Positions 1-22,623 of a stretch of DNA of 24,265 nucleotides are shown in pieces. The DNA is from Clostridia bacterium BRH_c25 (GTDB lineage: Bacteria; Bacillota_A; Clostridia; Lutisporales; Lutisporaceae). The DNA lies in the NCBI GenBank assembly GCA_001515955.1, contig LOES01000138.1, positions 1 to 24,265 of the forward strand, read 5' to 3'. Numbering within the stretch: the stretch's first letter is position 1; each line of letters opens with the position of its first letter. The position numbers and the translations under genes are program-made. The notes beneath the pieces were generated by a model. It made no database searches. It was not told where the DNA came from and saw only the letters and a list, made by a program, of their open reading frames with translations.

Positions 1-47
1 AGCGAAGTATCTTAAGATCCTTCGGTCGTTCCTCCCTCAGGATGACA
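1..47. repeat. TGTCATTCTGA-type palindromic repeat, truncated by window edge
   Basis: Right arm and part of the left arm of a dispersed near-palindrome, ending CTCAGGATGACA. Its right arm is the same as that of the copy at 14356-14416, and both are followed about 20-30 bp later by CATAACAATG.CAAT, so the repeated unit is longer than the palindrome itself. Confidence 0.8.
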
Positions 48-106
48 CCGCTGGTAATTGGCTCTCATAACAATGGCAATTTTCCCATGGCATGCGCCCC
101 TACCTT

Positions 107-134
107 CCCCGAACCTCGTACCCCGCACCCGAAC
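107..134. repeat. 7-bp repeat array (CCYCGNA words) next to a GTAGGGGCG half-site
   Basis: Four consecutive 7-bp words, CCCCGAA, CCTCGTA, CCCCGCA, CCCGAAC. Just outside is CGCCCCTAC (reverse complement GTAGGGGCG), the same partner seen next to the 7-bp arrays at 17521 and 22079. The array ends within the mbl terminator arm. Confidence 0.7.
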
Positions 135-177
135 TATTAAAAAAGGCAACCTTTCGGTTGTCCTTTTTTAATAGTTC
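131..177 (-). terminator. Intrinsic terminator of mbl
   Basis: An inverted repeat with a GAAA-type loop (minus strand CAACC-GAAA-GGTTG), an A-run on one side and a T-run on the other. The outer arms GAACTATTAA/TTAATAGTTC extend the stem to about 20 bp with one bulged base. The mbl stop codon (168-170) sits in the stem. The T-run on the minus strand fits termination of mbl; the symmetry would also allow termination from the other side. Confidence 0.85.
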
Positions 178-1202
178 ATTGTTATTATCTTCCTGTTGGC
201 ATTTATATCCGCATCTTCCAGCATGTCTATATGCTCCAGAGCTTTCCCGGTACCGATGGCCACGCAGGATATTGCATCCTGGGCAACATATACCGGTATG
301 CCTGTCCTTTTGCTGATCAGCTTGTCAAGGCCGTTTAAGAGTGAACCTCCACCTGTCATAACAATTCCTCTGTCGCTTATGTCTGCAGAAAGCTCCGGCG
401 GCGTCCTCTCCAGCACTGAATGTACTGCATCCGCAATGGCGGAAACAGGCTCAGAAAGTGCTTCAAGCATTTCATCAGAACTAACTTCTATTGTCTTCGG
501 AAGTCCTGAAATCAGGTTCCTTCCTCTGACCTCCACCTTAATCTGTTCGTCCCTGGGGAATGCGGTGCCGACATTTATCTTCAGCTCTTCAGCGGTTCTT
601 TCACCAACCATTATGTTATGCTTTTTCCTCATGTACCTTACTATAGCTTCATCAAACTTGTCCCCTGCAATCTTTATAGAAGTAGATACAACTATCCCGC
701 CAAGTGAAATTACAGCTATATCTGTAGTACCGCCGCCTATGTCTATTACCATATTGCCGCTGGCTTTGGCTATATCCAGACCTGCTCCGATAGCAGATGC
801 TATAGGCTCTTCAATAAGCCTGGTTGTCCTGGCACCTGCATTATTGGCAGCATCAATAACCGCCCTCTTTTCAACCTCTGTAACACCACTGGGCACACAG
901 ACAACCATCCTGGGCTTGAATATTCTTCTCCTGCCGATTGCCTTATCTATGAAGTACCTAAGCATTTTCTCAGTTACGTCATAATCAGAAATAACTCCCT
1001 CTCTAAGCGGTCTTATCGCAACAATATTGCCGGGTGTCCTGCCTAGCATCAACCTTGCATCTTCACCTACTGCCAATATTTTGTTTGAATTCCTGTCAAT
1101 GGCAACAACCGAGGGTTCCCTCAGTACAATGCCTTTCCCTTTTATGTAGACCAACACGCTAGCCGTTCCCAAATCGATGCCTATGTCTTGTCCTCCGAAC
1201 AT
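168..1202 (-). CDS. mbl: MreB/Mbl family rod-shape actin homologue
   Basis: Bacterial actin that polymerises under the membrane and guides lateral cell-wall synthesis. The sequence shows the actin-fold nucleotide motifs: phosphate-1 loop DIGIDLGTASVLVY near the N-terminus, phosphate-2 DIGGGTTDIAV in the middle and adenosine motif MTGGGSLLNG near the C-terminus. The chosen ATG at 1202 has GGAGGT six bases upstream; an in-frame ATG 8 codons earlier has no such site. Length of 344 residues is normal for the family. Its place next to spoIIID matches B. subtilis spoIIID-mbl, which is why I call it Mbl rather than the mreBCD-linked MreB; sequence alone does not separate the paralogues. The stop codon lies inside the 3' arm of the DNA inverted repeat that forms its terminator. 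Confidence 0.9.
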   Translation of the reverse strand: MFGGQDIGIDLGTASVLVYIKGKGIVLREPSVVAIDRNSNKILAVGEDARLMLGRTPGNIVAIRPLREGVISDYDVTEKMLRYFIDKAIGRRRIFKPRMVVCVPSGVTEVEKRAVIDAANNAGARTTRLIEEPIASAIGAGLDIAKASGNMVIDIGGGTTDIAVISLGGIVVSTSIKIAGDKFDEAIVRYMRKKHNIMVGERTAEELKINVGTAFPRDEQIKVEVRGRNLISGLPKTIEVSSDEMLEALSEPVSAIADAVHSVLERTPPELSADISDRGIVMTGGGSLLNGLDKLISKRTGIPVYVAQDAISCVAIGTGKALEHIDMLEDADINANRKIITMNY

Positions 1203-1342
1203 CTCAATACCTCCATAATATTTCAAATACAGTTTCTTACGCTAAATAATAGAAAATCGTTCACAAAACTTGCATAATCATTTACATATTCTATATAAAT
1301 ACTATAATTCCTGCATGAATCGATAATAAACGCTAAAAATCT

Positions 1343-1364
1343 TAGTCACTAGTCTCTAGTGTTA
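1343..1364. repeat. 7-bp repeat array, AGTCNCT words
   Basis: AGTCACT, AGTCTCT, AGTGTTA in 7-bp phase. The end CTAGTGTTA is the exact reverse complement of TAACACTAG at 1545-1553, so this array and the next one bracket the palindromic repeat at 1407-1513 in opposite orientation. Confidence 0.65.
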
Positions 1365-1406
1365 ATACAATTAAATAAGGCTAAAATAACTTCATCGTCT
1401 TACCCG

Positions 1407-1513
1407 TGTCATTCCGAGTATGCGAGGAATCTTATGCTTATGAGCACACCCCAGACAAATATACATAGGCATTCTTTTAGGGTCATAGATCCTTCACTAC
1501 GTTCAGGATGACA
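1407..1513. repeat. Long-form TGTCATTCTGA palindromic repeat
   Basis: Arms TGTCATTCCGAG...GAATCTT and AGATCCTTC...TTCAGGATGACA are about 27 bp each and inverted, separated by about 50 bp. That central segment resembles the one in the copy at 15959-16061 (shared ACAAAT/GCAAAT, ATTC, TAGG/AAGG, then AGATCCTTC), so the long form is a distinct variant of the roughly 54-bp short form at 11031. Confidence 0.75.
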
Positions 1514-1537
1514 TTAATAATAATTTTGCGTTATTTA

Positions 1538-1645
1538 GTAGTTGTAACACTAGTCTCTAGTCTCTAGTCTCTAGATTTCGCTAAGCCTTCGAAGCCCTTC
1601 CCTAATTCTAGTGACTAGCGACTAATGTCCAGTGACTGTTACTAC
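1538..1645. repeat. Inverted 7-bp array element with TTCGAA core
   Basis: Left array TAGTCTC three times (1551-1571), a core containing GCCTTCGAAGC (1585-1595), then a right array of the complementary type, TAGTGAC, TAGCGAC, TAATGTC, CAGTGAC (1609-1636). The outermost bases GTAGTTGTAAC and GTTACTAC are also inverted. The core recurs at 7451-7462 and, altered, at 22118-22128. Confidence 0.8.
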
Positions 1646-1691
1646 AGCTTGTCTACACTTTGATTATAAAATAAATACTATTAAATAACAA

Positions 1692-1748
1692 GCTCCAGCA
1701 ATTATATTGTCAATATGCCAGCATCAGCACACAAATAACTGCCGGAGC
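1692..1748 (-). terminator. Inverted repeat downstream of spoIIID, probable terminator
   Basis: GCTCCAGCAATTAT (1692-1705) and ATAACTGCCGGAGC (1735-1748) are inverted with 12 of 14 positions paired, 14 bases past the spoIIID stop codon. On the minus strand it is followed by TTGTTATTT, a modest T-rich stretch. Termination is the likely role but the T-run is weak and the loop is long. Confidence 0.5.
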
Positions 1749-1762
1749 CTGAACTTTCATCA

Positions 1763-2017
1763 CTACAGGCTTATGGACTGGTACTTCATCTTTGTTGCCC
1801 TTCCGCCTCTTATATGTCTTTCAGCTTTGTTCTGGTCCATTATCTCTTTAACCTGAAGTGCCACACTTGGATTTATCCTCGGAAGTCTTTCTGTGACATC
1901 TTTATGTACTGTACTTTTACTTACCCCGAATATTTTCGCTGCATCTCTGACCGTTGTCTTGCTGCTTATTATATATTTCGCAATTTCCAATGCTCTTTCT
2001 TCGATATAATCCTTCAA
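1763..2017 (-). CDS. spoIIID: Stage III sporulation DNA-binding regulator SpoIIID
   Basis: Small mother-cell transcription factor that, in the family, modulates the sigma-E regulon and helps switch to sigma-K. The 84-residue protein has a helix-turn-helix at about residues 22-41 (TVRDAAKIFGVSKSTVHKDV) and a basic C-terminal tail (RHIRGGRATKMKYQ), both characteristic of the family and near its usual length. The start is TTG at 2017, about 8 bases after a GGGGG Shine-Dalgarno run; no in-frame ATG fits. It lies between the SpoIIQ-like gene and mbl, the order known from Bacillus. A sigma-E type promoter is expected upstream, but I saw only a weak GCATATT-like -35 without a good -10. The 110-bp repeat lies 115 bases upstream in the opposite orientation. 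Confidence 0.95.
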   Translation of the reverse strand: MKDYIEERALEIAKYIISSKTTVRDAAKIFGVSKSTVHKDVTERLPRINPSVALQVKEIMDQNKAERHIRGGRATKMKYQSISL

Positions 2018-2131
2018 TTACTACTACCCCCTTATTGGTGTCTTTTTACATTAATATGCTGTTTTTTTGCTAATTAGAACACTCGTATTTGTTCATTAAT
2101 CAATGCTTTTTAACATAATAGATTTTCTATA

Positions 2132-2241
2132 TTGAACGCACAAAAGTATTTACATTGGGCAAAGTGCGAATTCAATAACAATCAAGGAAACATTTACGCG
2201 AAACCTGAATTAAGAATGTAAAATGTTTTTCGCGAAATATA
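2132..2241 (+). repeat. 110-bp structured repeat, copy A
   Basis: Nearly identical to the copies at 20701-20812 and 24188-24265 (minus). It contains TATTGAACGCAC ... GTGCGAATTCAATA (inverted) and CATTTACGCGAAA ... TTTTTCGCGAAAT (inverted with one bulge). No plus-strand gene follows; it lies between spoIIID and the SpoIIQ-like gene. Confidence 0.85.
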
Positions 2242-2277
2242 TAGTTATTCAAATGTTAAAAATGCATTACCGCTGTT

Positions 2278-2296
2278 TAGTGCCTCGAAGGCACTA
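2278..2296 (-). other. Perfect hairpin containing the spoIIQ stop codon
   Basis: TAGTGCCT, loop CGA, AGGCACTA: an 8-bp perfect stem. The stop codon TAG (2294-2296) forms the start of the stem on the minus strand. No T-run follows, so it is not a classic intrinsic terminator; it may mark or protect the 3' end of the message. Confidence 0.6.
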
Positions 2297-3088
2297 GTTC
2301 TTCAGAGATTGCTTAGGCAAATACTTTTTGGGATCAATATTCTTGCCTTCCTTAATTACTTCAAAGTGCAGATGAGGATCATCCGCAATTTCGTATAGTG
2401 CTGTTTTTCCTACACCGCTGATTACATCACCTTTTTTGATTGTCTGATTTATAGTAACCAGATCCAGGGTGGAAAGATTGCTGTACTTGGTATAGACTTC
2501 GCCTCCATGGTTTATGACGATAGTCAGACCTAGCTGGGGATCATTCACAAGTTCCTCCACCACACCATCCATTGCTGCTCTTACCGGGCTTCCTTCTTCT
2601 GCTTTTATATCAATTCCGGCATGTGTGCTCCACTGATCCAGTGTTTTTGAATAAATAAGTGCCTCATCCGAAAATTCGGTATATGCAGTCCCGAATACAG
2701 GAACTACCATTGTATCCATCTTTGGTTCTTCCATCTTTATTGCAGAAATGGATTTATCTTCATTTACTTTTTTGCTTTCTTCCGGTTTGTCCGTTACCTT
2801 ACTGTTTTGTTCTTTATCAGCTATTTTTACTGAGCTGCTGTTTGAGACTTCCGTCGCATCCTGAGCTTCGGAAGCGTCTACTTCTGTTTTTTCCTCTATT
2901 ATTTTTGCAATGGAATCATAATCAGATTCCCCGGTAAATTCTTCTAGGCTCTTCTCGAACTCCAGCTGTGCCCGCCTATCCTCAAGGTAGCCCCTATACT
3001 GCAATAGCCCTCCTGCAGTAAGCAATGCCGCTATCAATAAGACAACTAAATATATATACCTATTCTTGAACTCCCTGTTAAATTTCAT
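2294..3088 (-). CDS. spoIIQ: SpoIIQ-like membrane-anchored M23 (LytM) peptidase domain protein
   Basis: Forespore membrane protein that pairs with SpoIIIAH across the two membranes around the engulfing forespore. The 264 residues show a short cytoplasmic N-terminus, one membrane helix (about 11-30), an acidic low-complexity linker (about 45-125) and a LytM domain (about 126-255). Unlike B. subtilis SpoIIQ, which is known to lack a catalytic zinc ligand, all are visible here: H156 and D160 in THAGID and H239/H241 in PHLHFEV, as reported for clostridial SpoIIQ, so it could bind zinc and perhaps cut peptidoglycan. ATG follows GGAGGTGTAAATT. Its position next to spoIID supports the name over a generic M23 endopeptidase. 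A sigma-F promoter lies just upstream. Confidence 0.85.
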   Translation of the reverse strand: MKFNREFKNRYIYLVVLLIAALLTAGGLLQYRGYLEDRRAQLEFEKSLEEFTGESDYDSIAKIIEEKTEVDASEAQDATEVSNSSSVKIADKEQNSKVTDKPEESKKVNEDKSISAIKMEEPKMDTMVVPVFGTAYTEFSDEALIYSKTLDQWSTHAGIDIKAEEGSPVRAAMDGVVEELVNDPQLGLTIVINHGGEVYTKYSNLSTLDLVTINQTIKKGDVISGVGKTALYEIADDPHLHFEVIKEGKNIDPKKYLPKQSLKN

Positions 3089-3106
3089 AATTTACACCTC
3101 CGCTTG

Positions 3107-3136
3107 TATTATTTCCAATAGTTTTAAAAATAATAC
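3107..3136 (-). promoter_or_regulatory. Sigma-F type promoter of spoIIQ inside a perfect inverted repeat
   Basis: On the minus strand, -10 GGAAATAATA (3107-3116) fits the sigma-F/G consensus GGNNANAHTR at every position. GTATT (3132-3136) lies 15 bases upstream, one mismatch from GYATA. Both elements sit within a perfect 14-bp inverted repeat, CGCTTGTATTATTT / AAATAATACAAGCG (3101-3141). Transcription would start almost at the Shine-Dalgarno site, giving a very short leader. Confidence 0.7.
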
Positions 3137-3184
3137 AAGCGAAAGACACATTTTTACGGTAAAAAATTGAATTTTTGGCTCTAT

Positions 3185-3230
3185 GGGAACGGGTAACACG
3201 GAACACACGGAAATCCACGGAACACACGGT
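3185..3230. repeat. CACGGA 9-10 bp tandem repeat, left arm
   Basis: Starts GGGAACGGGTAACACGGA, followed by CACGGA at intervals of 9, 10 and 9 bases. The reverse-complementary arm is at 3390-3437, and a third copy in that inverted orientation is at 14485-14533. Confidence 0.75.
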
Positions 3231-3389
3231 TATTTTATTAATAGAATATATGCATGTTTTGATTATCATCTACTTTTAGCGTCATAAGCAGCTTAAATAT
3301 CTTTTACAGTGGTACCGAATTATACTGAACTATCATAATTCACTCAAGATACTAAAGCTCACTGAATTCACGATAAGATAATAAATTTT

Positions 3390-3437
3390 ACCGTGTCTTC
3401 CGTGTAACATCCGTGTCATTCCGTGTTACCCGTTCCT
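3390..3437. repeat. CACGGA tandem repeat, right (inverted) arm overlapping the spoIID end
   Basis: Reads ACCGTGTCTTCCGTG... and ends TTACCCGTTCC, the reverse complement of the left arm's start. The last codons and stop of spoIID (3416 upward) lie inside this repeat. Confidence 0.75.
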
Positions 3438-4393
3438 ATTATCAAATCGGACATGGATACTACATCAACTCCCTGGTAATAGTGCAATACTATATCACGG
3501 TAGCTTGCTCCGTTTTTCGCCATGCCGTCTGCACCATACTGGCTCATTCCGATACCGTGTCCGTTTCCGGCCACTGTAAACAGGATTGAGCTTCCTCCGA
3601 TATTGAAGTTGAAGTTTGCAGAATTCAAACCCAAAGCATTTCGTACATCGGTACCCTTAAAGGTCTTATCTCCTACTTTGAGCCTTGTTATTCTTCCCCC
3701 TTCGCTTCTTTCCAATACCTTTATCTCATTCTTTATATTTTTTTTATTGATTGTCACACCTGAGTCAAGCTTCTTCATGTGCTGTATGAAGTCATCAATA
3801 CTTATCTCCTGCTGAGCGATATATTTAGGAGAATGTTCCTCATACTGGCTCATTACACTTCTCAGGTACGGCACTCTGTTTGACCAGATTTCCTCCGAAT
3901 TTTCTGTTTTTCCTCCGCTGGTGGAATGGAATACCGCATCTATAAGCTTATTGTCATAAACTATTACCTCTCCTGCTGTGCCATAAACAGCTTCCTTAAG
4001 CTTATCCAGATCTGTCTTGATGGAAGCCGGATTTCTGTATGCCTGACAGTGGCTGGAATCGGTACATATCTCCGCCCCCGGATGTTTGCTGCAGCCGCTC
4101 CCTCCAAACCTGTTCATTCTCAGCATTGTATACGTCCTGGCAGCCAGAGCCTGCGCTTTAAGTGCCTCCGGATGAAAGCTTGCGGGCATCTCTCCTGCTA
4201 CTACACCTAATAAATAGTCCTCAAGATTCATTGTGACTATCTTGTCAATATCACACATATATACTTCTATAGGCAAATCGGTAACAGGCCTTAAGTCTTT
4301 ATCCAGCTCCTTTTCCTCGTCCTTTAACAAAACCAAGGGAATGATAAATAGCAATAGCATTAGTACCGCAATGGCTGCAGCCAGTTTCCTCAA
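3416..4393 (-). CDS. spoIID: Stage II sporulation protein D, peptidoglycan lytic transglycosylase
   Basis: Part of the engulfment machinery (SpoIID-SpoIIM-SpoIIP) that remodels peptidoglycan as the mother cell engulfs the forespore; SpoIID cleaves glycan strands. With a TTG start at 4393, seven bases after an AAGGGGGT Shine-Dalgarno site, the protein is 325 residues and opens with a basic residue pair and a membrane helix (RKLAAAIAVLMLLLFIIPL). The family core follows: EDYLLGVVAGEMPASFHPEA with the expected glutamate, LKAQALAARTY, and a cysteine/histidine-rich stretch (GCSKHPGAEICTDSSHC) like the metal site of clostridial SpoIID. The C-terminal half has GHGIGMSQYGA. The final residues GTGNTE plus stop are encoded by a dispersed repeat, so the natural end may be a few codons different. 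It lies just downstream of murA and its terminator. Confidence 0.93.
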   Translation of the reverse strand: MRKLAAAIAVLMLLLFIIPLVLLKDEEKELDKDLRPVTDLPIEVYMCDIDKIVTMNLEDYLLGVVAGEMPASFHPEALKAQALAARTYTMLRMNRFGGSGCSKHPGAEICTDSSHCQAYRNPASIKTDLDKLKEAVYGTAGEVIVYDNKLIDAVFHSTSGGKTENSEEIWSNRVPYLRSVMSQYEEHSPKYIAQQEISIDDFIQHMKKLDSGVTINKKNIKNEIKVLERSEGGRITRLKVGDKTFKGTDVRNALGLNSANFNFNIGGSSILFTVAGNGHGIGMSQYGADGMAKNGASYRDIVLHYYQGVDVVSMSDLIIGTGNTE

Positions 4394-4411
4394 AAGCTGT
4401 ACCCCCTTCCG

Positions 4412-4439
4412 ACAGTATCGTATATTATAAGTTATATTT
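4412..4439 (-). promoter_or_regulatory. Candidate sigma-E promoter of spoIID
   Basis: On the minus strand, AAATATAAC about 12-14 bases before GATACTGT loosely resembles the sigma-E pattern (-35 ATATT-like, -10 CATACANT). It lies after the murA terminator and just before the ribosome site. spoIID is a sigma-E gene in studied species. The match is partial. Confidence 0.3.
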
Positions 4440-4481
4440 AATATATTATTTGGGAGGGGGAGGTTATATGTCACAAAAAGC

Positions 4482-4506
4482 AAAAAACCCGGCGCATTGC
4501 ACCGGG
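4482..4506 (-). terminator. Intrinsic terminator of murA
   Basis: CCCGGCGC-ATT-GCACCGGG hairpin (4488-4506) followed on the minus strand by six Ts (4482-4487), starting seven bases after the murA stop. It separates murA from spoIID, which therefore needs its own promoter. Confidence 0.9.
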
Positions 4507-4512
4507 AAGTTA

Positions 4513-5766
4513 TCATTCCTCTATTCTTTTTATGTCTGCACCGAGTCTTTTCAGTTTTTCCTCTATCCTTATGTACCCTCTGTCAATATGATATATATCC
4601 GATATTTCCGTTCTTCCCTCTGCACAGAGCCCCGCTATGGTCAATGCCGCTCCCGCTCTCAGATCAGTGGCCTTAACCTTTGCACCGCTAAGTCTGTCAC
4701 AGCCCTCAATTATTGCGCTTCGCCCATCCACCTTTATCAGTGCTCCCATCAGCTTCAGTTCATTAATATGCATGAACCTGTTTTCAAAAACCGTCTCTGT
4801 AGCTATGCTTGTTCCTTTAGCCAGGCACATTGCCGTCATTATCTGAGACTGCATATCGGTGGGGAATCCCGGATACGGCATTGTCTTGATATCTACTGAG
4901 TTTAACCGGTCCGGCGCTTTTACCCTTATAGCCTTCTCATATTCCTGTACTTCGGCGCCCATCTCCTTAAGCTTTGCAGTGACAGGCTTCAAATGCTCGG
5001 GTACCACTCCCTCCACAATCACATCTCCGCCTGTGGCTGCTGCAGCAACCATAAAGGTGCCTGCCTCTATCCTGTCTGGTATGGCAGCATGGGTTGCGCC
5101 CTTCAGTTCTTTTACACCTTCGATTCTTACCGTATCAGTACCGGCACCTTTTATTACCGCTCCCATTTTACTTAAATAACTTGCCAGATCTACTATCTCC
5201 GGCTCCTCTGCTGCGTTCTCTATGACAGTTATTCCATCTGCCAGACAGCCTGCCATCATAAGGTTTTCCGTAGCTCCTACGCTGGGAAAGTCCAGGTATA
5301 TAGTTTCGCCCTTCAGCTTTTCGGCATATGCCTCAATATAGCCATGTCCCAGTGTAATATTTGCTCCCATCAGTGAGAATCCTTTAAGATGCAGGTCTAT
5401 TGGTCTTGTTCCTATAGCACAGCCACCCGGAAGGGAAATCTTTACCCTACCTATCCTGGCCAGCATGGGACCCATTATCAGAAAGGATGCTCTCATCTTG
5501 CGTATCAGCTCATAGGTTGCCTCAAAGCTGTTTATGCTTTCCGCTTTGATGATCAGGCTGCTGTCTGCCCTTTCCACCTCTGCACCTATAGACCTTACAA
5601 CCTCTTCCATTATATCAACATCATCAAGATAAGGTACTTCCTCCAGAATGCAGGCCTCAGGTGTAAGCATGGATGCTGCTATTACCGGGAGTATTGCGTT
5701 TTTCGCACTGTTCACCCTCACATCACCCTTCAGAACGCATCTGTCTTCAATGATTATTCTAGTCAA
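4513..5766 (-). CDS. murA: UDP-N-acetylglucosamine 1-carboxyvinyltransferase
   Basis: First committed step of peptidoglycan synthesis: transfers enolpyruvate from PEP to UDP-GlcNAc in the cytoplasm. TTG at 5766, seven bases after GGAGG, is preferred to an ATG five codons earlier that overlaps this ribosome site. The resulting 417 residues match the family. K22 and N23 (SAKNAILP) and the PEP-reactive, fosfomycin-targeted C116 in PGGCAIGTRPIDLHLKG are in the expected places. The C-terminus keeps the RAGAALTIAGL motif. It follows ywmB by 43 bases, so the two are probably co-transcribed. A second MurA paralogue is common in Gram-positives; synteny points to the MurAA type. Confidence 0.96.
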   Translation of the reverse strand: MTRIIIEDRCVLKGDVRVNSAKNAILPVIAASMLTPEACILEEVPYLDDVDIMEEVVRSIGAEVERADSSLIIKAESINSFEATYELIRKMRASFLIMGPMLARIGRVKISLPGGCAIGTRPIDLHLKGFSLMGANITLGHGYIEAYAEKLKGETIYLDFPSVGATENLMMAGCLADGITVIENAAEEPEIVDLASYLSKMGAVIKGAGTDTVRIEGVKELKGATHAAIPDRIEAGTFMVAAAATGGDVIVEGVVPEHLKPVTAKLKEMGAEVQEYEKAIRVKAPDRLNSVDIKTMPYPGFPTDMQSQIMTAMCLAKGTSIATETVFENRFMHINELKLMGALIKVDGRSAIIEGCDRLSGAKVKATDLRAGAALTIAGLCAEGRTEISDIYHIDRGYIRIEEKLKRLGADIKRIEE

Positions 5767-5809
5767 AATTCTTCCTCCCATTGTAACATCTTGCTGTACG
5801 GCCAGCTCC

Positions 5810-6559: not shown

Positions 6560-6641
6560 ATTGATTCCTCCCTTTGGCTTCTTTTAAATTATTGCCTCCT
6601 GAGAGGATTAATATTCAGTTTGGAATATTGAATGCACAACG

Positions 6642-6675
6642 AAAAAAAATGACGGCAATTAATTTGCCGTCATTT
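6642..6675 (-). terminator. Intrinsic terminator of ctfB
   Basis: AAATGACGGCAA, loop TTAAT, TTGCCGTCATTT: a 12-bp perfect stem (6647-6675) followed on the minus strand by eight Ts. It ends the ctfA-ctfB unit before ywmB. Confidence 0.9.
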
Positions 6676-6696
6676 CATTTGATATATTAAATACTA

Positions 6697-7362: not shown

Positions 7363-7410
7363 TCAATTCACTCCTTTACGTATTTACTCTTGGGTATGCG
7401 TTTTGGGTCA

Positions 7411-7503
7411 AGTCGCTAGTCTCTGGTCGCTAGTCTCTAGCTTTGAGAAAAGCCTTCGAAGCATTGCCCAAACCTAGCGACTAGTGTCTAGCATCTAGTG
7501 ACT
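7411..7503. repeat. Inverted 7-bp array element with TTCGAA core between ctfA and ctfB
   Basis: Left array of GTCNCTA words (7411-7440), core AGCCTTCGAAGC (7451-7462), right array CTAGCGA, CTAGTGT, CTAGCAT, CTAGTGA (7474-7501). The layout and core match the element at 1538-1645. Confidence 0.8.
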
Positions 7504-7504
7504 T

Positions 7505-7527
7505 ACGCAGTAGCGCAGCTACTGCGT
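7505..7527 (-). other. Perfect hairpin containing the ctfA stop codon
   Basis: ACGCAGTAGC, loop GCA, GCTACTGCGT: a perfect 10-bp stem. The stop codon TAG (7519-7521) lies inside the stem, which abuts the 7-bp element. No T-run follows on the minus strand. Confidence 0.65.
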
Positions 7528-8497: not shown

Positions 8498-8503
8498 CAA
8501 GGT

Positions 8504-9725: not shown

Positions 9726-9760
9726 ACTATTCTGAATACTAGTATAAAAATGTGTTTTTA

Positions 9761-9795
9761 GTCGCTAGACGCTAGTCTCTAGTGACTCGTGACTG
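9761..9795. repeat. Five perfect 7-bp repeats between tagO and wecB
   Basis: GTCGCTA, GACGCTA, GTCTCTA, GTGACTC, GTGACTG in strict 7-bp phase. The last two are the complementary (right-array) type, so this is an inverted array with the core missing. Confidence 0.75.
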
Positions 9796-10860: not shown

Positions 10861-11030
10861 TTTATCACTCCCAAGTACTATTATTTCTTCTGTAATTTTC
10901 ATCCATTCAATAAATATTCTACTGCAAGGAAAATTTATTGTCAATTCACTATTTTCAATGCTTCTAATATATTTTTCCCCAATGTATTAAAAATAAAACA
11001 CAATAAAAAATCAAATAAATTTATTGTGTA

Positions 11031-11084
11031 TGTCATCCTGAACGTAGTGAAGGATCTAAGATTCTTCGCAAGCTCAGAATGACA
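11031..11084. repeat. Short-form TGTCATTCTGA palindromic repeat
   Basis: A 54-base near-palindrome. Arms TGTCATCCTGAACGTAGTG... and ...GCAAGCTCAGAATGACA meet at ATCTAAGAT with almost no loop. It is the cleanest complete copy in the window and serves as the reference for the family. Confidence 0.8.
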
Positions 11085-11090
11085 CTATCG

Positions 11091-13200: not shown

Positions 13201-13202
13201 AC

Positions 13203-14249: not shown

Positions 14250-14355
14250 AATGACTCCTCCGAAAAAACAACTGTTATAGTTATTATGATATTATTAGTC
14301 ACATTATTAGTGTTTAGTCTCAAATATATTATGATGTTATCCTGAACAGAGTGTA

Positions 14356-14416
14356 TGTCATTCTGAACGTAGTGAAGAATCTAAGATCCTTCGGTCGTTC
14401 CTCCCTCAGGATGACA
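14356..14416. repeat. TGTCATTCTGA palindromic repeat, third variant
   Basis: Left arm TGTCATTCTGAACGTAGTG, right arm ending CCCTCAGGATGACA, with the right arm extended by several bases relative to the copy at 11031. The right half matches the copy at 1-47. Confidence 0.8.
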
Positions 14417-14484
14417 CTGCAAACACCAGTGGCATTCATAACAATGACAATGACAATGTCAAAACGTTGAAACCTTCTTCATAT

Positions 14485-14533
14485 CCCATCCGTGTACTCC
14501 GTGGATTTCCGTGTGTTCAGTGTTACCCGTTCT
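14485..14533. repeat. CACGGA-type tandem repeat, third copy
   Basis: CCGTG words at 9-10 base spacing, ending GTGTTACCCGTTCT. The reverse complement is nearly the same as 3185-3230, including AACACACGGAAATCCACGGA. Confidence 0.75.
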
Positions 14534-14635
14534 CCGGAACCCCGCACCTGCGCAACATGCATAAAAAACTGTGCTAATATGCTCAAATACATAATAACAC
14601 AGCAAAATATCATATACAACTTTCATAATATCTGT

Positions 14636-15373: not shown

Positions 15374-15467
15374 TTCATTGCCCCCAATTCAAGAATATGC
15401 ATTAGCTCTTTATATTTATATTCATGAGGGGGATTTATAGAACGGATACCTTTGGGGAAGGTGCAGA

Positions 15468-15848: not shown

Positions 15849-15905
15849 AAGAATCACTCCTACAATCCATACATATTTGTTTTCCATTATACATTAACAC
15901 AATAA

Positions 15906-16099
15906 TAGTCACTAGTCACTAGTACTACTTTGTTACCTTGTAAAAACTATGTTTTCTGTGTCACTCTGACGCAGGAAGAGTCTAAGACCCAAAAGGCAAG
16001 ACCCAAGCAAATGCATGTATTCCTCTAAGGTCTAAGATCCTTCTCTACGCTCAGGATGACAACTAGTGGAGATATAACAAAGTAACACTAATCTCTAGA
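15906..16099. repeat. 7-bp arrays bracketing a long-form palindromic repeat
   Basis: Left array TAGTCAC, TAGTCAC, TAGTACT (15906-15926) is followed by ACTTTGTTA. After the palindromic repeat, TAACAAAGT (16075-16083) is followed by AACACTAATCTCTAG. The outer parts are inverted around the palindrome, as at 1343-1574. Confidence 0.65.
15959..16061. repeat. Long-form TGTCATTCTGA palindromic repeat
   Basis: Left arm TGTCACTCTGACGCAGG, right arm AGATCCTTCTCTACG...CAGGATGACA, with about 50 bp between them. The centre resembles that of 1407-1513. Confidence 0.75.
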
Positions 16100-16132
16100 T
16101 TCGGGTGACGCTTTGGGGTTCACATCCGACAC

Positions 16133-17281: not shown

Positions 17282-17342
17282 ATATTCCATCTCCCTTACA
17301 TATACCTAAGAAAAAATTACAAAATTCAGAGCACAAATATAA

Positions 17343-17371
17343 ATTATATAACTTTGAAACTATTATTTCAA
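17343..17371 (-). promoter_or_regulatory. Sigma-A promoter of the antiporter gene
   Basis: Minus strand TTGAAA (17366-17371), 17 bases, TATAAT (17343-17348): a perfect -10 and one mismatch at -35. An inverted repeat TTTGAAA/TTTCAAA (17353-17372) occupies the -35 and spacer and could be an operator. Confidence 0.8.
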
Positions 17372-17464
17372 AATGGCTTATTGGCAAATACAGGCGATAC
17401 GGCTTTATTTGCAGCTGTCTGTGTGAATAATATCTGTATTTCTACAAAATACATGCATAGACGT

Positions 17465-17496
17465 AAAAAGCAGAGGCAAGTTAACCTGCCTCTGCT
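17465..17496 (-). terminator. Intrinsic terminator of the yqhQ-prmC-prfA operon
   Basis: AGCAGAGGCA ... TGCCTCTGCT, a 10-bp perfect stem with an 8-base loop, followed on the minus strand by a run of Ts (17465-17469). It lies about 70 bases past the prfA stop because a repeat element sits between. Confidence 0.9.
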
Positions 17497-17520
17497 TCTA
17501 TTAACACATATATATGGTGC

Positions 17521-17566
17521 GGACGCCCAATGGGCGCCCCTACTCGTATCTCGCATCTCGTATCTA
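17521..17566. repeat. 7-bp array plus GTAGGGGCG palindrome attached to the prfA stop codon
   Basis: TCGTATC, TCGCATC, TCGTATC (17544-17564) beside the palindrome GGACGCCCA-A-TGGGCGCCC (17521-17539) and CCTAC. On the minus strand the prfA stop TAG opens the first 7-bp word. The same module pair occurs at 22079-22187. Confidence 0.75.
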
Positions 17567-18631
17567 TTCCGCCCCTTTGAGCTTTTCTGCCTGTGCACTT
17601 GTTATCAGTGAATCTATCATCTCATCAATGTCTCCGTCCATGAAGGAATCCAACTGATATAAGGTCAGCCCTATCCTATGGTCCGTCACCCTGCCCTGAG
17701 GGAAATTGTAGGTCCTTATTCTTTCACTTCTGTCTCCTGTACCTACCTGACTCTTCCTGTCGCTGGCAATGGAGGCATTATGCCTCTCAATTTCAATATC
17801 CAGAAGTCTGGATTTTAATATCTTTATAGCCTTATCTTTGTTCTTGAGCTGTGATTTTTCATCCTGGCAGGATACAACCAAGCCTGTAGGAAGATGCGTT
17901 ACTCTTACAGCACTGTCCGTTGTGTTTACACTCTGTCCTCCGTGTCCGCTTGAACGGAATACATCAATTCTCAGATCATTGGCGTTTATTTCCACATCTA
18001 CATCTTCTGCCTCCGGGAGCACCGCAACTGTAGAAGTTGAAGTATGTATCCTCCCGCTGGCTTCGGTAGAAGGAATCCTCTGAACCCTGTGGGCTCCGCT
18101 TTCGTATTTGAGCCTGCTGTATGCACCTTTGCCGTTGATCTCAAATATTACTTCCTTATAACCGCCTATATCTGTAGCATTGGAGCTGAGCATTTCTACC
18201 TTCCAGCCCAATCTTTCCGCATATCTTACATACATCCTGAACAGGTCCCCGGCGAACAATGCTGCTTCTTCTCCTCCTGCAGCACCTCTTACTTCAACTA
18301 TAACGCTTTTATCATCATTGGGATCCTTGGGAAGAAGCATTACCCTGATCTCCTCTTCAATGCTCTCCTTCTTTTCCTGCAGCTCTGAAAGCTCAAATCT
18401 GACCATTTCTTCAAAATCCTTGTCAGGCTTATCTGAAAGCATAGCTTTTGAATCTTCTATACCCTTAAGCACGGACTTATACTCCTTGACCTTTGCAACC
18501 AAAGGCTCAAGGCCCGCATGCTCCTTCACAAGCTTCTGCCACATGCTCTGATCCCCTATAACTTCAGGATCACTTATCTTATGGCTCAGATCCTCATATT
18601 TCTCTTCGATAAACTCCAGTTTATCCAACAT
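17564..18631 (-). CDS. prfA: Peptide chain release factor 1
   Basis: Recognises UAA and UAG stop codons and triggers peptide release on the ribosome. ATG at 18631, nine bases after GGAG, gives 355 residues, normal for RF1; upstream in-frame starts would run into prmC. The anticodon-like tripeptide PST (187-189, PxT as in RF1, not SPF as in RF2) and the catalytic GGQ (231-233, in [17 protein letters not shown]) are in place. It lies 25 bases after prmC, whose product methylates that GGQ glutamine, the usual functional pairing. Its own stop is TAG, set inside a repeat word. Confidence 0.97.
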
Positions 18632-18656
18632 CCTATCACACTCCATATCCCAAAAA

Positions 18657-19541
18657 CTATCGTATTTTACGTCCCCATACACATCTGTCATAACCCGAAA
18701 GATCTTTTTCAATATTTAAATTGTCATAATAACCGCTCTCTTCCATAATATTTTTCACTCTAACCCCTTGATCATGTCCCACCTCAAATGCGAGTATTCC
18801 TTTATTCTTGAGAAATTCAACGCTGTCCTTAATAATTCTTCTATAGTATACAAGCCCGTCTTTGCCTCCGTCAAGAGCCAAATGAGGCTCATAGCTGCGG
18901 ACATTTATATCCAGCTCTTGTATAGCAGCACTTTCTATATAAGGGGGGTTGGACACTATTACATCAGTAATCCCCAGCAACCCTTCCTCCCTGATATTCT
19001 CAAACAAATCGCTCTTTACTACCCTTATGCTGTTCTCCAATCCAAATCGATTGACATTTATATTGCAGCAGTCCAAAGCACTATCAGAAATATCCACAGC
19101 CAACACCCTTGCATTGGGTATATTGATCGCAAGGCTTACTGCTATTGCTCCGCTGCCGGTACACACATCAATTATTTCAGGGCTTTCCAAGCCCTTGGTC
19201 AGCTCAATTACCTTTTCTGCAATTATTTCAGTGTCGCCACGGGGTATAAGCACCCCTGAATCTACGTATAACTCAAGACCCATAAATTCCTGTCTTTTGG
19301 TAATGTACTGTACAGGCTTACCCTTGCTCCGTTCATCTATAAGCTCCATATACCCTTTGGCAGCTTGCTCATCAAGCAAATACTCCTGTTGTGTCATAAG
19401 CTTTATTCTGTTAAAATCCATTCCGGATTGTTTCAGGGCAAAAATTAGCAGCAGCTCTGCATCGAGTACCGGGGTATCGGTATTCATGCACTTTTTTAAG
19501 ACTTCCACTGCATTTTTCAGCAGCTCCCTTATGCTTCCCAT
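18657..19541 (-). CDS. prmC: Release factor glutamine methyltransferase
   Basis: Uses S-adenosylmethionine to N5-methylate the glutamine of the GGQ motif of release factors. The 294 residues show an N-terminal helical release-factor-binding domain (about 1-85), the VLIPRGDTE motif (97-105, a PRxDTE variant), the SAM-binding [14 protein letters not shown] (125-138) and the catalytic NPPY (198-201). ATG overlaps the yqhQ stop codon as TAATG, so translation is coupled, and prfA follows. This yqhQ-prmC-prfA order recurs in Clostridia. Confidence 0.96.
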
Positions 19542-20470
19542 TACCAGTTATCCGCCTCCGGGTCAACTACAAGAACACTCTTAAGAGCTTCAACAGCTAC
19601 TTCTATCTGCTTGTCGTCCGGCTCTCTGGTGGTTATTTTCTGCAGCCACATTCCCGGAGCCGATATAATGCAGGATAGCTTGCTCTGGCTCTTTCCCGCC
19701 CATTTGATAATTTCGAAGGATATACCGGCCACAAAAGGTATAAGTACTATCCTTATTAGAAGCCTCATCAATACTCCTGACCAACTGAACATTGAAAAAA
19801 GAAGTATGCTCACTATCATTACTATGAAAAGAAAGCTGGTACCGCATCTTGGGTGCAGCCTGCCATATTTTTTTACATTCTCTACAGTCAGTTCTTCTCC
19901 ATGCTCATAACAGAATATGCTCTTGTGCTCTGCTCCGTGATATTCAAATACTCTTCTGATATCCTTCATTTTGGATACCGCAAGTATATAACCCAGGAAA
20001 ATGGCTATCCTTACTATGCCCTCAATTCCATTTAGCATAACATTGCTGTTGGTATATATCTTGAAAGCATCTACAATTACAGTAGGAAGCAGTATGAAAA
20101 GACCTACTGAGAACACTATTGAAATGACAACAGATATCCATATTATATTATTGCCCAAAAATTCATCAAACTTTGAAGGCTTCTTTTTCTTTTCCTCTTC
20201 TTCTTCTTCAATGAACTCGGCGGAGTACATAAGTGCTTTGACACCCAGTACCATTGAATCTATAAATGCATACATGCCTCTTAGTATAGGTATCTTGGAT
20301 ATTACCTTCCTGTTGCCCTTAAGCTTTTCCTTGCTTACAATTATCTCTCCATCAGGCTTCCTCACTGCAATGGCAACATCCTCGGCTCCCTTCATCATTA
20401 CTCCCTCAATAACGGCCTGGCCACCTACAGCCTTTGGTTTTATTTTGTTCTCAGAACCTAATATTTTCAT
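19541..20470 (-). CDS. yqhQ: DUF1385 / YqhQ-family membrane protein
   Basis: Conserved membrane protein of unproven biochemical role. The 309 residues include the N-terminal family signature GGQAVIEGVMMKG (16-28), an acid/lysine-rich cytoplasmic stretch (EEEEEEKKKKP, about 88-98), several membrane helices (about 110-135, 150-165, 212-250), and the strongly conserved FEYHGAEHKSIFCYEHGE plus GRLHPRCGTSF segments, whose His, Glu and Cys residues could bind metal. The end lies in the cytoplasm by prediction. ATG follows AAAGGT. It heads the prmC-prfA operon, with a sigma-A promoter at 20520-20548. The adjacency to translation-termination genes is conserved but unexplained. Confidence 0.9.
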   Translation of the reverse strand: MKILGSENKIKPKAVGGQAVIEGVMMKGAEDVAIAVRKPDGEIIVSKEKLKGNRKVISKIPILRGMYAFIDSMVLGVKALMYSAEFIEEEEEEKKKKPSKFDEFLGNNIIWISVVISIVFSVGLFILLPTVIVDAFKIYTNSNVMLNGIEGIVRIAIFLGYILAVSKMKDIRRVFEYHGAEHKSIFCYEHGEELTVENVKKYGRLHPRCGTSFLFIVMIVSILLFSMFSWSGVLMRLLIRIVLIPFVAGISFEIIKWAGKSQSKLSCIISAPGMWLQKITTREPDDKQIEVAVEALKSVLVVDPEADNW

Positions 20471-20519
20471 ATATTTCTACCTTTCAAATGAATTGGTTAT
20501 TTCAAAATCCTCTTATAGT

Positions 20520-20548
20520 AGTATATCGTTACTTGATGTGATTTACAA
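20520..20548 (-). promoter_or_regulatory. Sigma-A promoter of the yqhQ operon
   Basis: Minus strand TTGTAA (20543-20548), 17 bases, TATACT (20520-20525), about 50 bases before the yqhQ ATG. Each hexamer has a small deviation from consensus and the spacing is ideal. Confidence 0.65.
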
Positions 20549-20700
20549 GAGCAGGACTTTATTCGACAAATTTATGAATATTTATACAAATATGCAACAA
20601 TTAATATTTATTACCATCCATTTTTGTGTTAAAATATATTTTGTAAAACCCATGTTTATTTATTTGTCAGCTTGAAGGAAAATACTTAATAATATTGTCT

Positions 20701-20812
20701 ATATTGAACACACGTAGTATTTACATTGGGAGGAGTGCGAATTCAATAACAACCAAGGAAACATTTACGCGAAATTTAAATAAAAAATGTAAAATGTTTT
20801 TCGCGAAATATT
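20701..20812 (+). repeat. 110-bp structured repeat, copy B, leader of cheY-like gene
   Basis: About nine in ten positions match copy A by eye. The second arm ends at CGCGAAATAT, and the Shine-Dalgarno run of the cheY-like gene begins three bases later, so any transcript reading this gene from upstream carries the repeat in its 5' leader. Differences from copy A fall mostly in the loops. Confidence 0.85.
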
Positions 20813-20828
20813 TAAGGGGGGAAATGTT

Positions 20829-21338
20829 TTGGCAAAAGTACTTGTTGTAGATGACTCATCAATAATGAGAAGAAATCTGTCAGCTATACTTAAAAATGCA
20901 GGTCATACTATTGTATCAGAAGCCGCCAATGGTGAACTGGCTGCTAAAGAATATGAAAAGCATAAGCCAGATCTTGTGACAATGGATATTACCATGCCGG
21001 TGCTGAATGGCATCGGTGCAGTCAAGAAGATAATTGACTATGATCCGGAGGCCCAGATAATTATGATAAGTGCCCTTGATCAGAAATTTATGGTATTGAC
21101 TGCTATTCAGAATGGAGCCAAACATTACATAATTAAACCCTTCAGTACGGAAAAAGTAATAGCTGTGGTAAATGAAGTACTGAATTCATCCCATGGCAAA
21201 GCCGTCAAAAAAGCAGACAAGCCCTGCAAACAACCTCCGAGTGTACTTAACACCACCATTGTTGGTATCAATCAGTCTATTGATAATATTAATACCGCAA
21301 TAAAGACCCTGGATACAGAGCCTCCCGAAGAAAAATGA
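20829..21338 (+). CDS. CheY-like single-domain response regulator
   Basis: Receiver protein with a C-terminal extension but no DNA-binding domain. Acidic pocket D8/D9, phosphoacceptor D53 (TMDITMP), S81 (MISAL) and K103 (IKPF) are all present, so it should be phosphorylated by a histidine kinase. Residues about 120-169 form a polar tail ending in a short amphipathic segment (VGINQSIDNINTAIKTL) that may bind a partner. TTG at 20829 follows GGGGGG. It is the only plus-strand gene here and has no kinase or chemotaxis neighbour, so the partner is unknown. It resembles chemotaxis CheY, but regulation of another process is equally possible. The 110-bp repeat sits directly upstream. Confidence 0.85.
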   Translation: MAKVLVVDDSSIMRRNLSAILKNAGHTIVSEAANGELAAKEYEKHKPDLVTMDITMPVLNGIGAVKKIIDYDPEAQIIMISALDQKFMVLTAIQNGAKHYIIKPFSTEKVIAVVNEVLNSSHGKAVKKADKPCKQPPSVLNTTIVGINQSIDNINTAIKTLDTEPPEEK

Positions 21339-21346
21339 TAAAATCA

Positions 21347-21413
21347 AGGGGCTGTTGCAAAATTTGTAGGGAACGGTCTTGACCTTTCCACATTTTGCAA
21401 CAACCCCTTTTTA
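21347..21413 (+). terminator. 62-bp imperfect palindrome followed by T-run, terminator of cheY-like gene
   Basis: AGGGGCTGTTGCAAAAT (21347-21363) pairs with ATTTTGCAACAACCCCT (21392-21408) with one mismatch, and the interior GGAACGGTC-TT-GACCTTTCC folds again. TTTTT follows on the plus strand. It ends the cheY-like gene and faces the end of tdk, nine bases away. The GGGGCTGTTGCAAAA end is reminiscent of insertion-sequence termini, so it may derive from a small non-autonomous element. Confidence 0.8.
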
Positions 21414-21416
21414 TCC

Positions 21417-21998
21417 CTACTTCTTCCCCGGAACCTCGTGGCATTTCCTGCACCTAGCTTCATAGCTTTCCTTGGCCCCTACCAATATTATCGGATCATC
21501 ATAGCATGCAGGCTTTCCGTCTATCAGCCTCTGGGTTCTGGTAGCAGGATTTCCGCACTTTATGCATATAGCCTGGATCTTGTCCACAAATTCTGCAGCA
21601 GACATCAATTCGGGTGTAGGGCCAAAAGGCTCTCCCTTAAAATCCTGGTCAAGACCTGCCACAATTACGCGTCTTCCTTCATCAGCCAACTTGGTACATA
21701 TATCCACTACACCTTTATCGAAAAACTGCACTTCATCTATTGCTACAACAATTGTGTCATCTTCTATGTACTTCATAATATCTTCAGAGTTTGAAATCTT
21801 TAATGCTTCAATTTTAATTCCGTTATGAGATACAACGTGATCGATTGCATAACGGTCATCAATACAATGCTTGAATACCTGCACTTTTTGTCTTGCAATT
21901 TTTGCTCTGTTAATTCTCCTTATTAATTCTTCACTCTTACCGCTGAACATTGGTCCAACAACTACTTCAATCCATCCATGATCCTTCGGTCCATACAT
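21417..21998 (-). CDS. tdk: Thymidine kinase
   Basis: Phosphorylates thymidine (and deoxyuridine) with ATP for salvage; type II (TK1-like) fold. The 193 residues contain the P-loop [11 protein letters not shown] (15-25), the DEVQFFD motif (Walker B-like), the catalytic/lasso region and a zinc site made of [13 protein letters not shown] and CRKCH. ATG follows GGGGGT at six bases. A near-perfect sigma-A promoter lies 40-70 bases upstream. Tdk next to rpmE and prfA is a common Gram-positive arrangement. Confidence 0.96.
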
Positions 21999-22037
21999 AT
22001 TACAACCCCCATATGCAGAATTTTCCCTTACTTCATT

Positions 22038-22066
22038 ATTATAAATGCTCAGATAATTTATGGCAA
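22038..22066 (-). promoter_or_regulatory. Sigma-A promoter of tdk
   Basis: Minus strand TTGCCA (22061-22066), 17 bases, TATAAT (22038-22043). The repeat element begins about five bases upstream of the -35 box, leaving the core promoter intact. Confidence 0.8.
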
Positions 22067-22070
22067 GAGA

Positions 22071-22187
22071 ATAGATAGATGCGAGATGCGAGACTCGAGA
22101 TGCGAGATTTAAGCTAAGCTTCGAAGGCGGGCGAACACTGTTCGCCCCTACAACCCGGAACCTCGTATCTCGTATCTCGTATCTAAA
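22071..22187. repeat. Compound inverted 7-bp array element with two palindromic cores
   Basis: Left array of ATGCGAG-type words (about 22079-22107), core AAGCTTCGAAGGC, palindrome GGGCGAACACTGTTCGCCC (22129-22147) followed by CCTACA, right array CCTCGTA, TCTCGTA, TCTCGTA (22161-22181). The arrays are inverted relative to each other. It joins the TTCGAA core type of 1538/7411 with the GTAGGGGCG palindrome type of 17521. Confidence 0.85.
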
Positions 22188-22188
22188 T

Positions 22189-22223
22189 TAAAATAAATAG
22201 AGGTTAAAGCAATCTTTAACCTC
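22189..22223 (-). terminator. Intrinsic terminator of rpmE
   Basis: GAGGTTAAAG, loop CAAT, CTTTAACCTC: a 10-bp perfect stem (22200-22223) followed on the minus strand by TATTTATTTTAATTT. It begins six bases after the rpmE stop. Confidence 0.85.
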
Positions 22224-22229
22224 CGTGAA

Positions 22230-22475
22230 TTATTCTTCTTTGTTTTCTTCTTTAACTTCTTCTTTGATTTCTGCTTTGTCCAAGTTAAATCTCTTCTTGA
22301 ATCTGTCAACACGTCCGCCTGTATCTACAAGCTTCTGCTTTCCTGTAAAGAAAGGATGACACTTGGAACAAATTTCTACTTTTATTTCCTTTTTAACTGA
22401 ACCTGTCTCAAATGCTTCTCCACAAGCACATTTAACAACTGCCTCTCCATACTTCGGATGGATTCCTTCTTTCAT
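22230..22475 (-). CDS. rpmE: 50S ribosomal protein L31, zinc-binding type
   Basis: Ribosomal protein of the large subunit. With ATG at 22475, preceded by GAGGTGA, it has 81 residues; a GTG three codons earlier overlaps the ribosome site. C16, C18 (CACG), C36 and C39 (CSKCHPF) form the zinc ribbon of the C+ type, not the zinc-free RpmE2/YtiA type. The family motif HPKYGE near the start and FYTGK-like [18 protein letters not shown] are present. The acid/lysine-rich tail ([15 protein letters not shown]) extends it by about 12-15 residues, as in many Clostridia. It lies between rho and tdk with its own promoter. Confidence 0.97.
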
Positions 22476-22581
22476 TTTATTCACCTCTTTCTTTATGGAA
22501 TGTATATACGTGCGACTAAATCACACACTATCGTATTAAATTCTTTCAGGCAGCGCGGAATTAATTTCGTCCTTCGGCACT

Positions 22582-22623
22582 CCCCGCACCTCGAACCTCG
22601 TACCCCGAACCTCGCGCCTGCAA
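22582..22623. repeat. Six perfect 7-bp repeats upstream of rpmE
   Basis: CCCCGCA, CCTCGAA, CCTCGTA, CCCCGAA, CCTCGCG, CCTGCAA in strict phase. They lie within the rpmE leader, just downstream of its promoter, so they would be transcribed. Confidence 0.75.

Follow-up and report, generated by a model that had tools for sequence, protein, structure and literature searches.

Convergent heptanucleotide arrays around TTCGAA-like centres in Clostridia: a degenerate heptad and candidate mobile elements

Tandem heptanucleotide repeats are known from cyanobacteria as STRR sequences. Arrays inverted around a centre are not known to belong to the STRR description, and a first-pass annotation set apart from STRR the arrays treated here. 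These lie in a 24,265 bp stretch of DNA from Clostridia bacterium BRH_c25 (contig LOES01000138.1, positions 1 to 24,265), called the window below, and in the genomes of its relatives. The arrays follow a heptad rule with a free fourth position, point inward at a centre, most often hold four units, are present or absent at orthologous gaps, and use a few word variants that recur at many loci of one genome. We read them, with a probability of roughly 0.4, as dispersed, likely mobile, non-autonomous palindromic elements, each with a hairpin-like centre and convergent arms that are mostly GNYDCKR heptads and likely serve as iterons for a putative trans-acting protein.

Several described repeats come close. 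Heptads of the forms GGGNATC and GGGGAYT in Xanthomonas and Nostoc, with a free position, make mostly intergenic arrays that prefer four units, and 70 and 75 convergent pairs on opposite strands are reported from Xanthomonas (PMC4692102). Such units contain G-tracts and fold into quadruplexes in vitro, and for GGGNATC in Xanthomonas the preference for four has been linked to the four G-tracts of a quadruplex (PMC4692102). The Clostridia arrays share with these the 7-bp unit with a free position, the intergenic placement, the four-unit preference and the convergent pairs, so that the claim of the first-pass annotation that no named family matches was wrong in part. They differ, as far as the accessible part of that source goes, in that many arrays lack GG, several words fall under one rule, and the elements have a TTCGAA-like centre between their arms and GTAG palindromes mixed in (PMC4692102). 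Geobacter metallireducens has octa- and heptanucleotide arrays, four to five units long and for the most part paired on opposite strands, that have been called putative binding sites of global regulators (classes 1-4), besides 49 elements of four heptads (GGACCGG); the short paired arrays on opposite strands are alike, whereas the units (GTTGCTYN, MTYCTGA) and the variable spacing of the pairs are not, and the accessible part of the paper mentions no TTCGAA centre (PMC2700814). The TAACTGA repeats of Beggiatoaceae, Cyanobacteria and Bacteroidetes, found in two to six copies in the Guaymas genome, are also intergenic heptanucleotide units in direct repeat, but, in what is accessible of their description, they use a single fixed word, nearly always direct and mostly just upstream of start codons (PMC4679880). 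Repetitive extragenic palindromes (REPs) tagged with GTAG and associated with RAYT genes recall the GTAG palindromes in intergenic DNA beside some of our arrays; unlike our elements, REPs as described in the accessible part of their source have no heptad arms, and the Y1 genes here do not track the arrays (PMC3733652). No paper on these Clostridia elements was among the matches listed from the open-licence literature. Their several words under one degenerate rule, TTCGAA centre, mosaic with GTAG palindromes and four-unit arms free of G-tracts set them apart from the precedents.

A degenerate heptad and the anatomy of the elements

Period-7 runs stand in the window at 1550, 7411, 9759, 15906, 17543, 22077, 22162 and 22582, eight in all, where 30 first-order Markov shuffles average 0.07. 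No runs occur at the remaining periods between 4 and 15 save at 6 (two), 12 (three) and 14 (four, harmonics of 7). The phased arrays of the first-pass annotation are thus found at or near the places it gave, while its count of at least ten loci holds only when two-unit stretches are included and arms are counted apart. Apart from one base at the prfA stop, the arrays are confined to the 17.7% of the window outside genes, a tandem 7-bp unit in intergenic DNA as in the GGGNATC kind of Xanthomonas.

The differing words are mostly variants of a single degenerate, directional heptad, 5'-GNYDCKR-3', in which position 4 is free. The rule was derived from 104 arrays (GC at least 0.3) of the window, four relatives (G013, G001, G009 and G007; G numbers denote genomes and L numbers the stretches within them) and five Lutispora-like genomes. 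Five positions set orientation and phase (1 as G, 3 as Y, 5 as C, 6 as K, 7 as R), and positions 2 and 4 were left unused. GNYDCKR fits 69 of the 104 arrays, compared with a mean of 19.4 and a maximum of 31 in 200 shuffles of the order of the seven columns. Position 4 of the fitting arrays holds A 120 times, T 90, G 74 and C 3, and its mean heterozygosity within arrays is 0.36, against 0.01-0.19 for the remaining columns; at position 2 any base may occur across arrays, with little variation inside one (0.07). Since this way of choosing phase favours low variation at the positions it uses, the alignment was repeated on 68 arrays anchored on the most variable column alone. The same motif (G, N, Y, free, C, K, R) was recovered, with 2.59 bits against a mean of 0.93 and a maximum of 1.38 in 30 random anchorings. 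The top column takes a share of 0.57 of the heterozygosity, against 0.517 (maximum 0.543) under scattered substitutions. It was therefore an overstatement that the word differs by locus, the five words first quoted being phase- and strand-shifted forms of GTCNCTA, GATNCGA and GGTNCGA, which all fit GNYDCKR; and the statement that words are homogenised within loci fails for the free fourth position.

Chains of at least three such heptads number nine in the window (mean 0.09, maximum 1, in 100 second-order Markov shuffles), and the window read backwards yields no chain of three or more. Three of the five TTCGAA sites are centres of inverted array pairs, at 1546-1636, 7412-7502 and 22077-22184, as had been proposed from the sequence alone. 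In the mreB/spoIIID gap, a forward-strand left arm (1546..1573) of three perfect GTCTCTA and one imperfect unit is followed by a hairpin centre (1575..1608) with a CCTTCGAAGC core (TTCGAA at 1588) and by a reverse-strand right arm (1609..1636) reading GTCACTG, GACATTA, GTCGCTA, GTCACTA. The ctfB/ctfA gap holds four forward-strand heptads GTCKCTR (7412..7440), a hairpin centre with the same core (7441..7471, TTCGAA at 7455) and a reverse-strand arm GTCACTA, GATGCTA, GACACTA, GTCGCTA (7472..7502). In the tdk/rpmE gap the left arm has four forward-strand heptads (GATGCGA, one being GACTCGA; 22077..22108) and the right arm three reverse-strand heptads GATACGA (22162..22184); the centre between them (22109..22161) contains GCTTCGAAG at 22118 and a GTAG-tagged palindrome with CCCCTAC at 22145. 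CCCCTAC, the reverse complement of GTAGGGG, adjoins arrays at three of its six sites in the window, which bears out the proposed attachment to a palindrome, and most window arrays have no such palindrome. Its other two array-linked sites lie in reverse-strand parts: at 97, before a three-heptad array (97..129; GGTGCGG, GGTACGA, GGTTCGG at 109-129, a weaker match to the rule), and at 17537, before three heptads GATRCGA that touch the prfA stop codon (17521..17565). The forward strand carries another weaker stretch, GTCACTA GTCTCTA (1345..1358), a wecB/tagO-gap array GTCGCTA, GACGCTA, GTCTCTA that runs in phase into inverted heptads with no centre (9754..9794), and GTCACTA GTCACTA upstream of the nhaP-like gene (15906..15923). 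A reverse-strand array of five heptads (GGCGCGA, GGTTCGG, GGTACGA, GGTTCGA, GGTGCGG) lies in the rpmE/rho gap (22584..22618); the G001 gap is without this stretch.

A recurrent form in the window, G001, G007 and G013 has a centre with a GCTTCGAAGC-like core enclosed by two arrays, the second of them inverted; the inner arm ends are 21-41 bp apart in the eight elements whose arms both meet a strict chain rule. A GTAG-tagged palindrome also lies inside some centres (as in the tdk/rpmE element, and at L178:5354 in G013). One-armed forms are common, and the array at 17521-17565 has a GTAG palindrome as its sole partner. With GNYDCKR taken as the 5' to 3' reading, the array points at the TTCGAA-like core in 42 of the 43 pairs of a fitting array and a nearby core, where arrays close to two cores enter twice; this gives convergent pairs on opposite strands as in Xanthomonas. 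Four units is the commonest length, again as in Xanthomonas, with 36 of 67 fitting arrays; 12 have three, 14 five, three six, one nine and one ten. Units with one mismatch are counted, hence some four-unit arrays are three perfect units plus one. The reversed sequence yields six arrays (one of three units, five of four). Of the 67, 29 contain no GG and so lack G-tracts able to form a quadruplex (six of three units, 20 of four, one of five, two of six), and these contradict G-quadruplexes as the general reason for four units.

Core candidates number 73, of which 20 have two strong arms. Arm words are more alike within elements (mean 5.11 of 7) than when arms of different elements are paired, whether inside one genome (4.68) or between genomes (3.75), and 33 of 2000 permutations of arms within a genome reach the observed sum; by eye, the free position is frequently mismatched between arms. 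Three elements of G013 share one asymmetric arm pair (L172:8329, L175:3700, L256:9871) and two more share another in opposite orientations (L172:11540, L178:6790), and to us they look as copies would. Non-coding and with inverted ends, the elements resemble miniature inverted-repeat transposable elements (MITEs). Self-folding of the heptads was considered and rejected, as single arms fold with no better energy than heptads whose columns were permuted (mean z 0.03, median 0.23, n = 104). Of the 104 arrays, 52 hold palindromic tetranucleotides, against 41.2 +/- 4.6 expected (null maximum 56).

Orthologous gaps and spread among relatives

Gaps between genes were matched among the window, G013, G001 and G009, whose proteins have a median identity of 80-88%. 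Among 271 gap pairs an array is present in both members in 7, in one only in 52 and in neither in 212; since the majority of stretches had been picked for an array in one of the genomes, these counts are not unbiased rates. Filled and empty orthologous sites are again as in MITEs, and whole elements are present or absent, in keeping with the non-autonomous, palindrome-linked system first proposed. The suggestion that arrays are rewritten locally fared less evenly. The heptads differ in all seven both-present pairs (five distinct gaps). At ctfB/ctfA the window and G001 share both flanks while the heptad differs, and the core stands 44 bp from the flank in the window and 52 bp in G001, a difference of one heptad and a further base. 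When the final four heptads are aligned by hand from the flank, column 3 differs in four of four and columns 1 and 2 never do; a machine alignment supports the last two of the four. G001 is without the other arm, and the gap is just 16 bp in G013 and 24 bp in G009. This gap is one good case of a word changing in place. At mreB/spoIIID the core is 53 bp (window) and 54 bp (G013) from the same flank, the arms being GTCNCTA and GGTNCGR, and G001 has no array in this gap; here a second insertion at a preferred site may be the alternative to change in place. The tdk/rpmE gap has inverted pairs of differing heptads in the window and G007, and no inverted pair in G013, G001 or G009. Co-occurrence at the same gap was rejected as proof of inheritance: 7 in 271 is about twice the 3.4 computed by hand from the margins, a weak excess in a biased fetch.

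Genome-wide counts come from the relatives, not from the window's own genome, and since these genomes are drafts of unstated completeness, absence in any single one is weak. At a score of at least 10, the period-7 excess is strong in two genomes and modest in two (G001 and the Lutispora genome G008). In 259 kb of G007 there are 23 runs at period 7 and 0-9 at other periods save 16 at 14; in 205 kb of G013 there are 17 runs, with 0-5 at other periods save eight at 14. Stretches of G014, G009, G002, G017 and G015 (4.5-40 kb each) have no period-7 runs. A search for four successive GNYDCKR units, which need not be alike, used the backward pattern as control and counted overlapping matches apart. 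In 22 family genomes, which are also all those sampled from the order, it gives 309 matches against 17 backward, with at least one match in 16; G001, G007, G008, G012 and G013 are rich in arrays, and the six at zero are G002, G014, G015, G017, G018 and G020. The 13 family genomes not used in deriving the rule give 79 matches against 12 backward, 11 of the latter in G019. Across the class, matches occur in 17 of 291 genomes. Nine belong to the family; among the rest, G061 has 85 (control 8), G076 46 (control 19) and G151 38 (control 17), and five more have one or two, including G077 and G102, where the control exceeds the forward count. When arrays that the search pattern itself had found are left out of the stretches examined, the rule fits 7 of 22 arrays from beyond the family (2.0 on average and at most 6 in 300 null draws), 2 of 4 from family members not seen before and 0 of 2 from G016. 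Support for the rule outside the family is moderate.

Some larger repeats contain heptad arrays. In G115 (L277:8711-9152), a block of about 150-200 bp is repeated in succession, with two such arrays in every copy. G001 has a multicopy element of about 430 bp (L139:9430-9890, L125:1-435) with ends GGAGAAAAATGTGAC...GTCGCATTMTTCTCC and a heptad array inside; related pieces lie in L001, L240, L126, L132 and L124, and Rfam gives no match in L139 or L125. In G008, L020 and L087 carry 8-bp arrays (e.g. GGCAAATG/GGCAAATA) and CTGAGYT heptads, all outside the GNYDCKR rule.

Gene setting and other repeats of the window

We read the gene order of the window as mreB, spoIIID, M23 peptidase, spoIID, murA, ywmB-like, CoA-transferase B and A, wecB, tagO-like, comEB-like, upp, rpiB, LMW-PTP, sua5, zip, small regulator, nhaP-like, prfA, prmC, DUF1385, cheY-like, tdk, rpmE and rho. 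An NCBIfam scan of ten of the proteins places six above curated cut-offs (MreB, SpoIIID, SpoIID, CoA-transferase B and A, WecB), finds relatives below cut-off for two and none for two; names beyond the six are our own reading. The closest relatives of wecB are in a Bacillota metagenome-assembled genome (81%), then in Clostridia metagenome-assembled genomes and Lutispora (about 68-73%). An Rfam scan has zero matches in the window and, in the stretches of four relatives, just five tRNAs and one SAM riboswitch, all in L178.

The window has repeats of other kinds. A near-duplicate of about 115 bp (TATTGAACGCAC...TTCGCGAAATAT) lies at 2130-2245 and 20698-20812, with a relative in the mreB/spoIIID gap of G013. 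ACACGGA / CCGTGT repeats with a period near 9-11 (3187-3437 and about 14495-14530) form inverted ends of a stretch between the M23 peptidase gene and spoIID. Dispersed repeats of the TCATCCTGAACGTAGTGAAGGATCT type (about 1480-1515, 11030-11085, 14335-14416 and 16035-16065) are also found in gaps of the relatives.

Competing explanations and what the arrays may mean

A first rival account takes the arrays for plain heptanucleotide simple-sequence repeats made by DNA polymerase slippage, without recognition or mobility, the 7 bp reflecting the length of DNA that the polymerase contacts (Mrazek et al. 2007, as cited in PMC4679880 and PMC4692102). We think this unlikely, if the most serious of the rivals: heptanucleotides are reported to outnumber every other class of long repeat in most genomes (PMC4679880), and the difference of about one heptad at ctfB/ctfA is of the kind that slippage makes, but slippage fails to predict a motif shared across words, a free position 4, an inward direction, or a mode at four units in place of a falling curve, and entire elements are missing from some orthologous gaps. 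A protein reading heptads in register would leave most positions constrained and one free, keep the direction fixed and favour one unit number; slippage alone would not. Arms and centre might instead be kept as regulatory hairpins for RNA or DNA structure (a terminator, or protection of mRNA ends), the heptads only supplying stem length. The window elements do sit between co-directional genes, and paired arms are alike beyond the within-genome shuffle; against this, the free position is often mismatched between arms, one-armed forms are common, discordant arms exist, congeners lack elements in the same gap, single arms fold no better than permuted ones and Rfam is silent on the window, and this account is distinctly improbable. 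Target-site duplications of a transposase with a 7-bp stagger were rejected as a source of the words, for they predict unrelated words at each locus, yet a few variants recur.

Candidate makers were searched for as Y1_Tnp and RVT_1 only. REP-type elements moved by a RAYT or Y1 tyrosine transposase would account for the GTAG-tagged palindromes at 97, 17537 and 22145, and Y1_Tnp is above cut-off in 16 of the 22 family genomes (54 matches). The 30 of these 54 loci that were examined hold zero TTCGAA cores, one clear array (L182) and one weak run (L200), so the elements do not flank the gene there. Nor do arrays and transposase occur together in these drafts: arrays stand without any Y1 match in G010 and G022, Y1 stands without arrays in G015 (nine matches), G017 and G018 (one each), and G007, rich in arrays, has a single short IS200-type match (147 aa). 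Y1 genes thus fail to track arrays, the Y1 (RAYT/IS200-like) link suggested at first pass is not borne out, and Y1 was rejected as general maker; REP-type movement is very unlikely. Writing of the heptads from an RNA template by a reverse transcriptase or telomerase-like enzyme is mostly refuted and scarcely probable. It would suit an array of G151 whose words change while the 7-bp phase continues, as well as the words that differ at one gap between species, but RVT_1, present in six other array-bearing genomes, has no match in eight (G001, G007, G009, G010, G011, G012, G013 and G016).

Several points count against reading these as mobile elements with protein-recognized arms. No heptad-reading protein was found in searches that covered Y1_Tnp and RVT_1 alone. 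The motif is softer in the anchor-only alignment, with G in 44 of 68 arrays at position 1 and C in 46 of 68 at position 5; the free column there is C in 9.5 of 68, and the claim of "never C" at position 4 therefore rests on the first alignment. Outside GNYDCKR fall 35 of 104 arrays (including CTGAGYT in Lutispora, AGGGAAY and GGCWATR), and 2 of 20 two-armed elements have clearly discordant arms. The period-7 excess is modest in G001 (256 kb: 14 runs at 7, 11 at 6, 10 at 9) and G008 (421 kb: 11 at 7, 10 at 8, 9 at 9), and the backward control is sizeable in G076 and G151 outside the family. Arrays are also partly copies of one another and not independent, so every count overstates the number of events.

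It would appear, on the reading of dispersed mobile elements that we prefer, that each has two arms converging on a centre, most commonly with four heptads per arm, the arms being recognition iterons for a putative trans-acting protein that moves or arranges the elements. Mobility is suggested by shared arm pairs and empty orthologous gaps. Copying by a transposase or recombinase that recognises the heptads would spread the elements, as suggested by the constraint on the other positions, the freedom of the fourth and the direction kept relative to the centre. Unit number would probably alter in heptad steps by slippage or unequal exchange, and the word variants may be sub-families that replace one another at a site, through re-insertion or homogenisation within an arm.

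Bacteria widely carry heptanucleotide repeats for which there is no accepted reason; the proposals include the contact length of the polymerase and G-quadruplexes (PMC4679880, PMC4692102). A degenerate, directional heptad in inward arms, with a four-unit mode free of G-tracts, points to sequence recognition. A wider idea, rather doubtful at present, is that paired arrays converging on a centre, with about four heptads each, form one general class of bacterial mobile or chromosomal element (Clostridia, Xanthomonas, Geobacter), in which a conserved putative protein reads a three-free-three heptad (GNY-D-CKR; GGG-N-ATC) in 7-bp steps. If so, words that differ inside a genome or from one genome to another would mark specificity variants of that protein, whose oligomeric state, and not G-quadruplexes, would underlie the four-unit rule. 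Four GNYDCKR heptads offer a concrete bait for finding the putative protein, and the patchy distribution (array-rich members against six at zero) gives a contrast for finding its gene.

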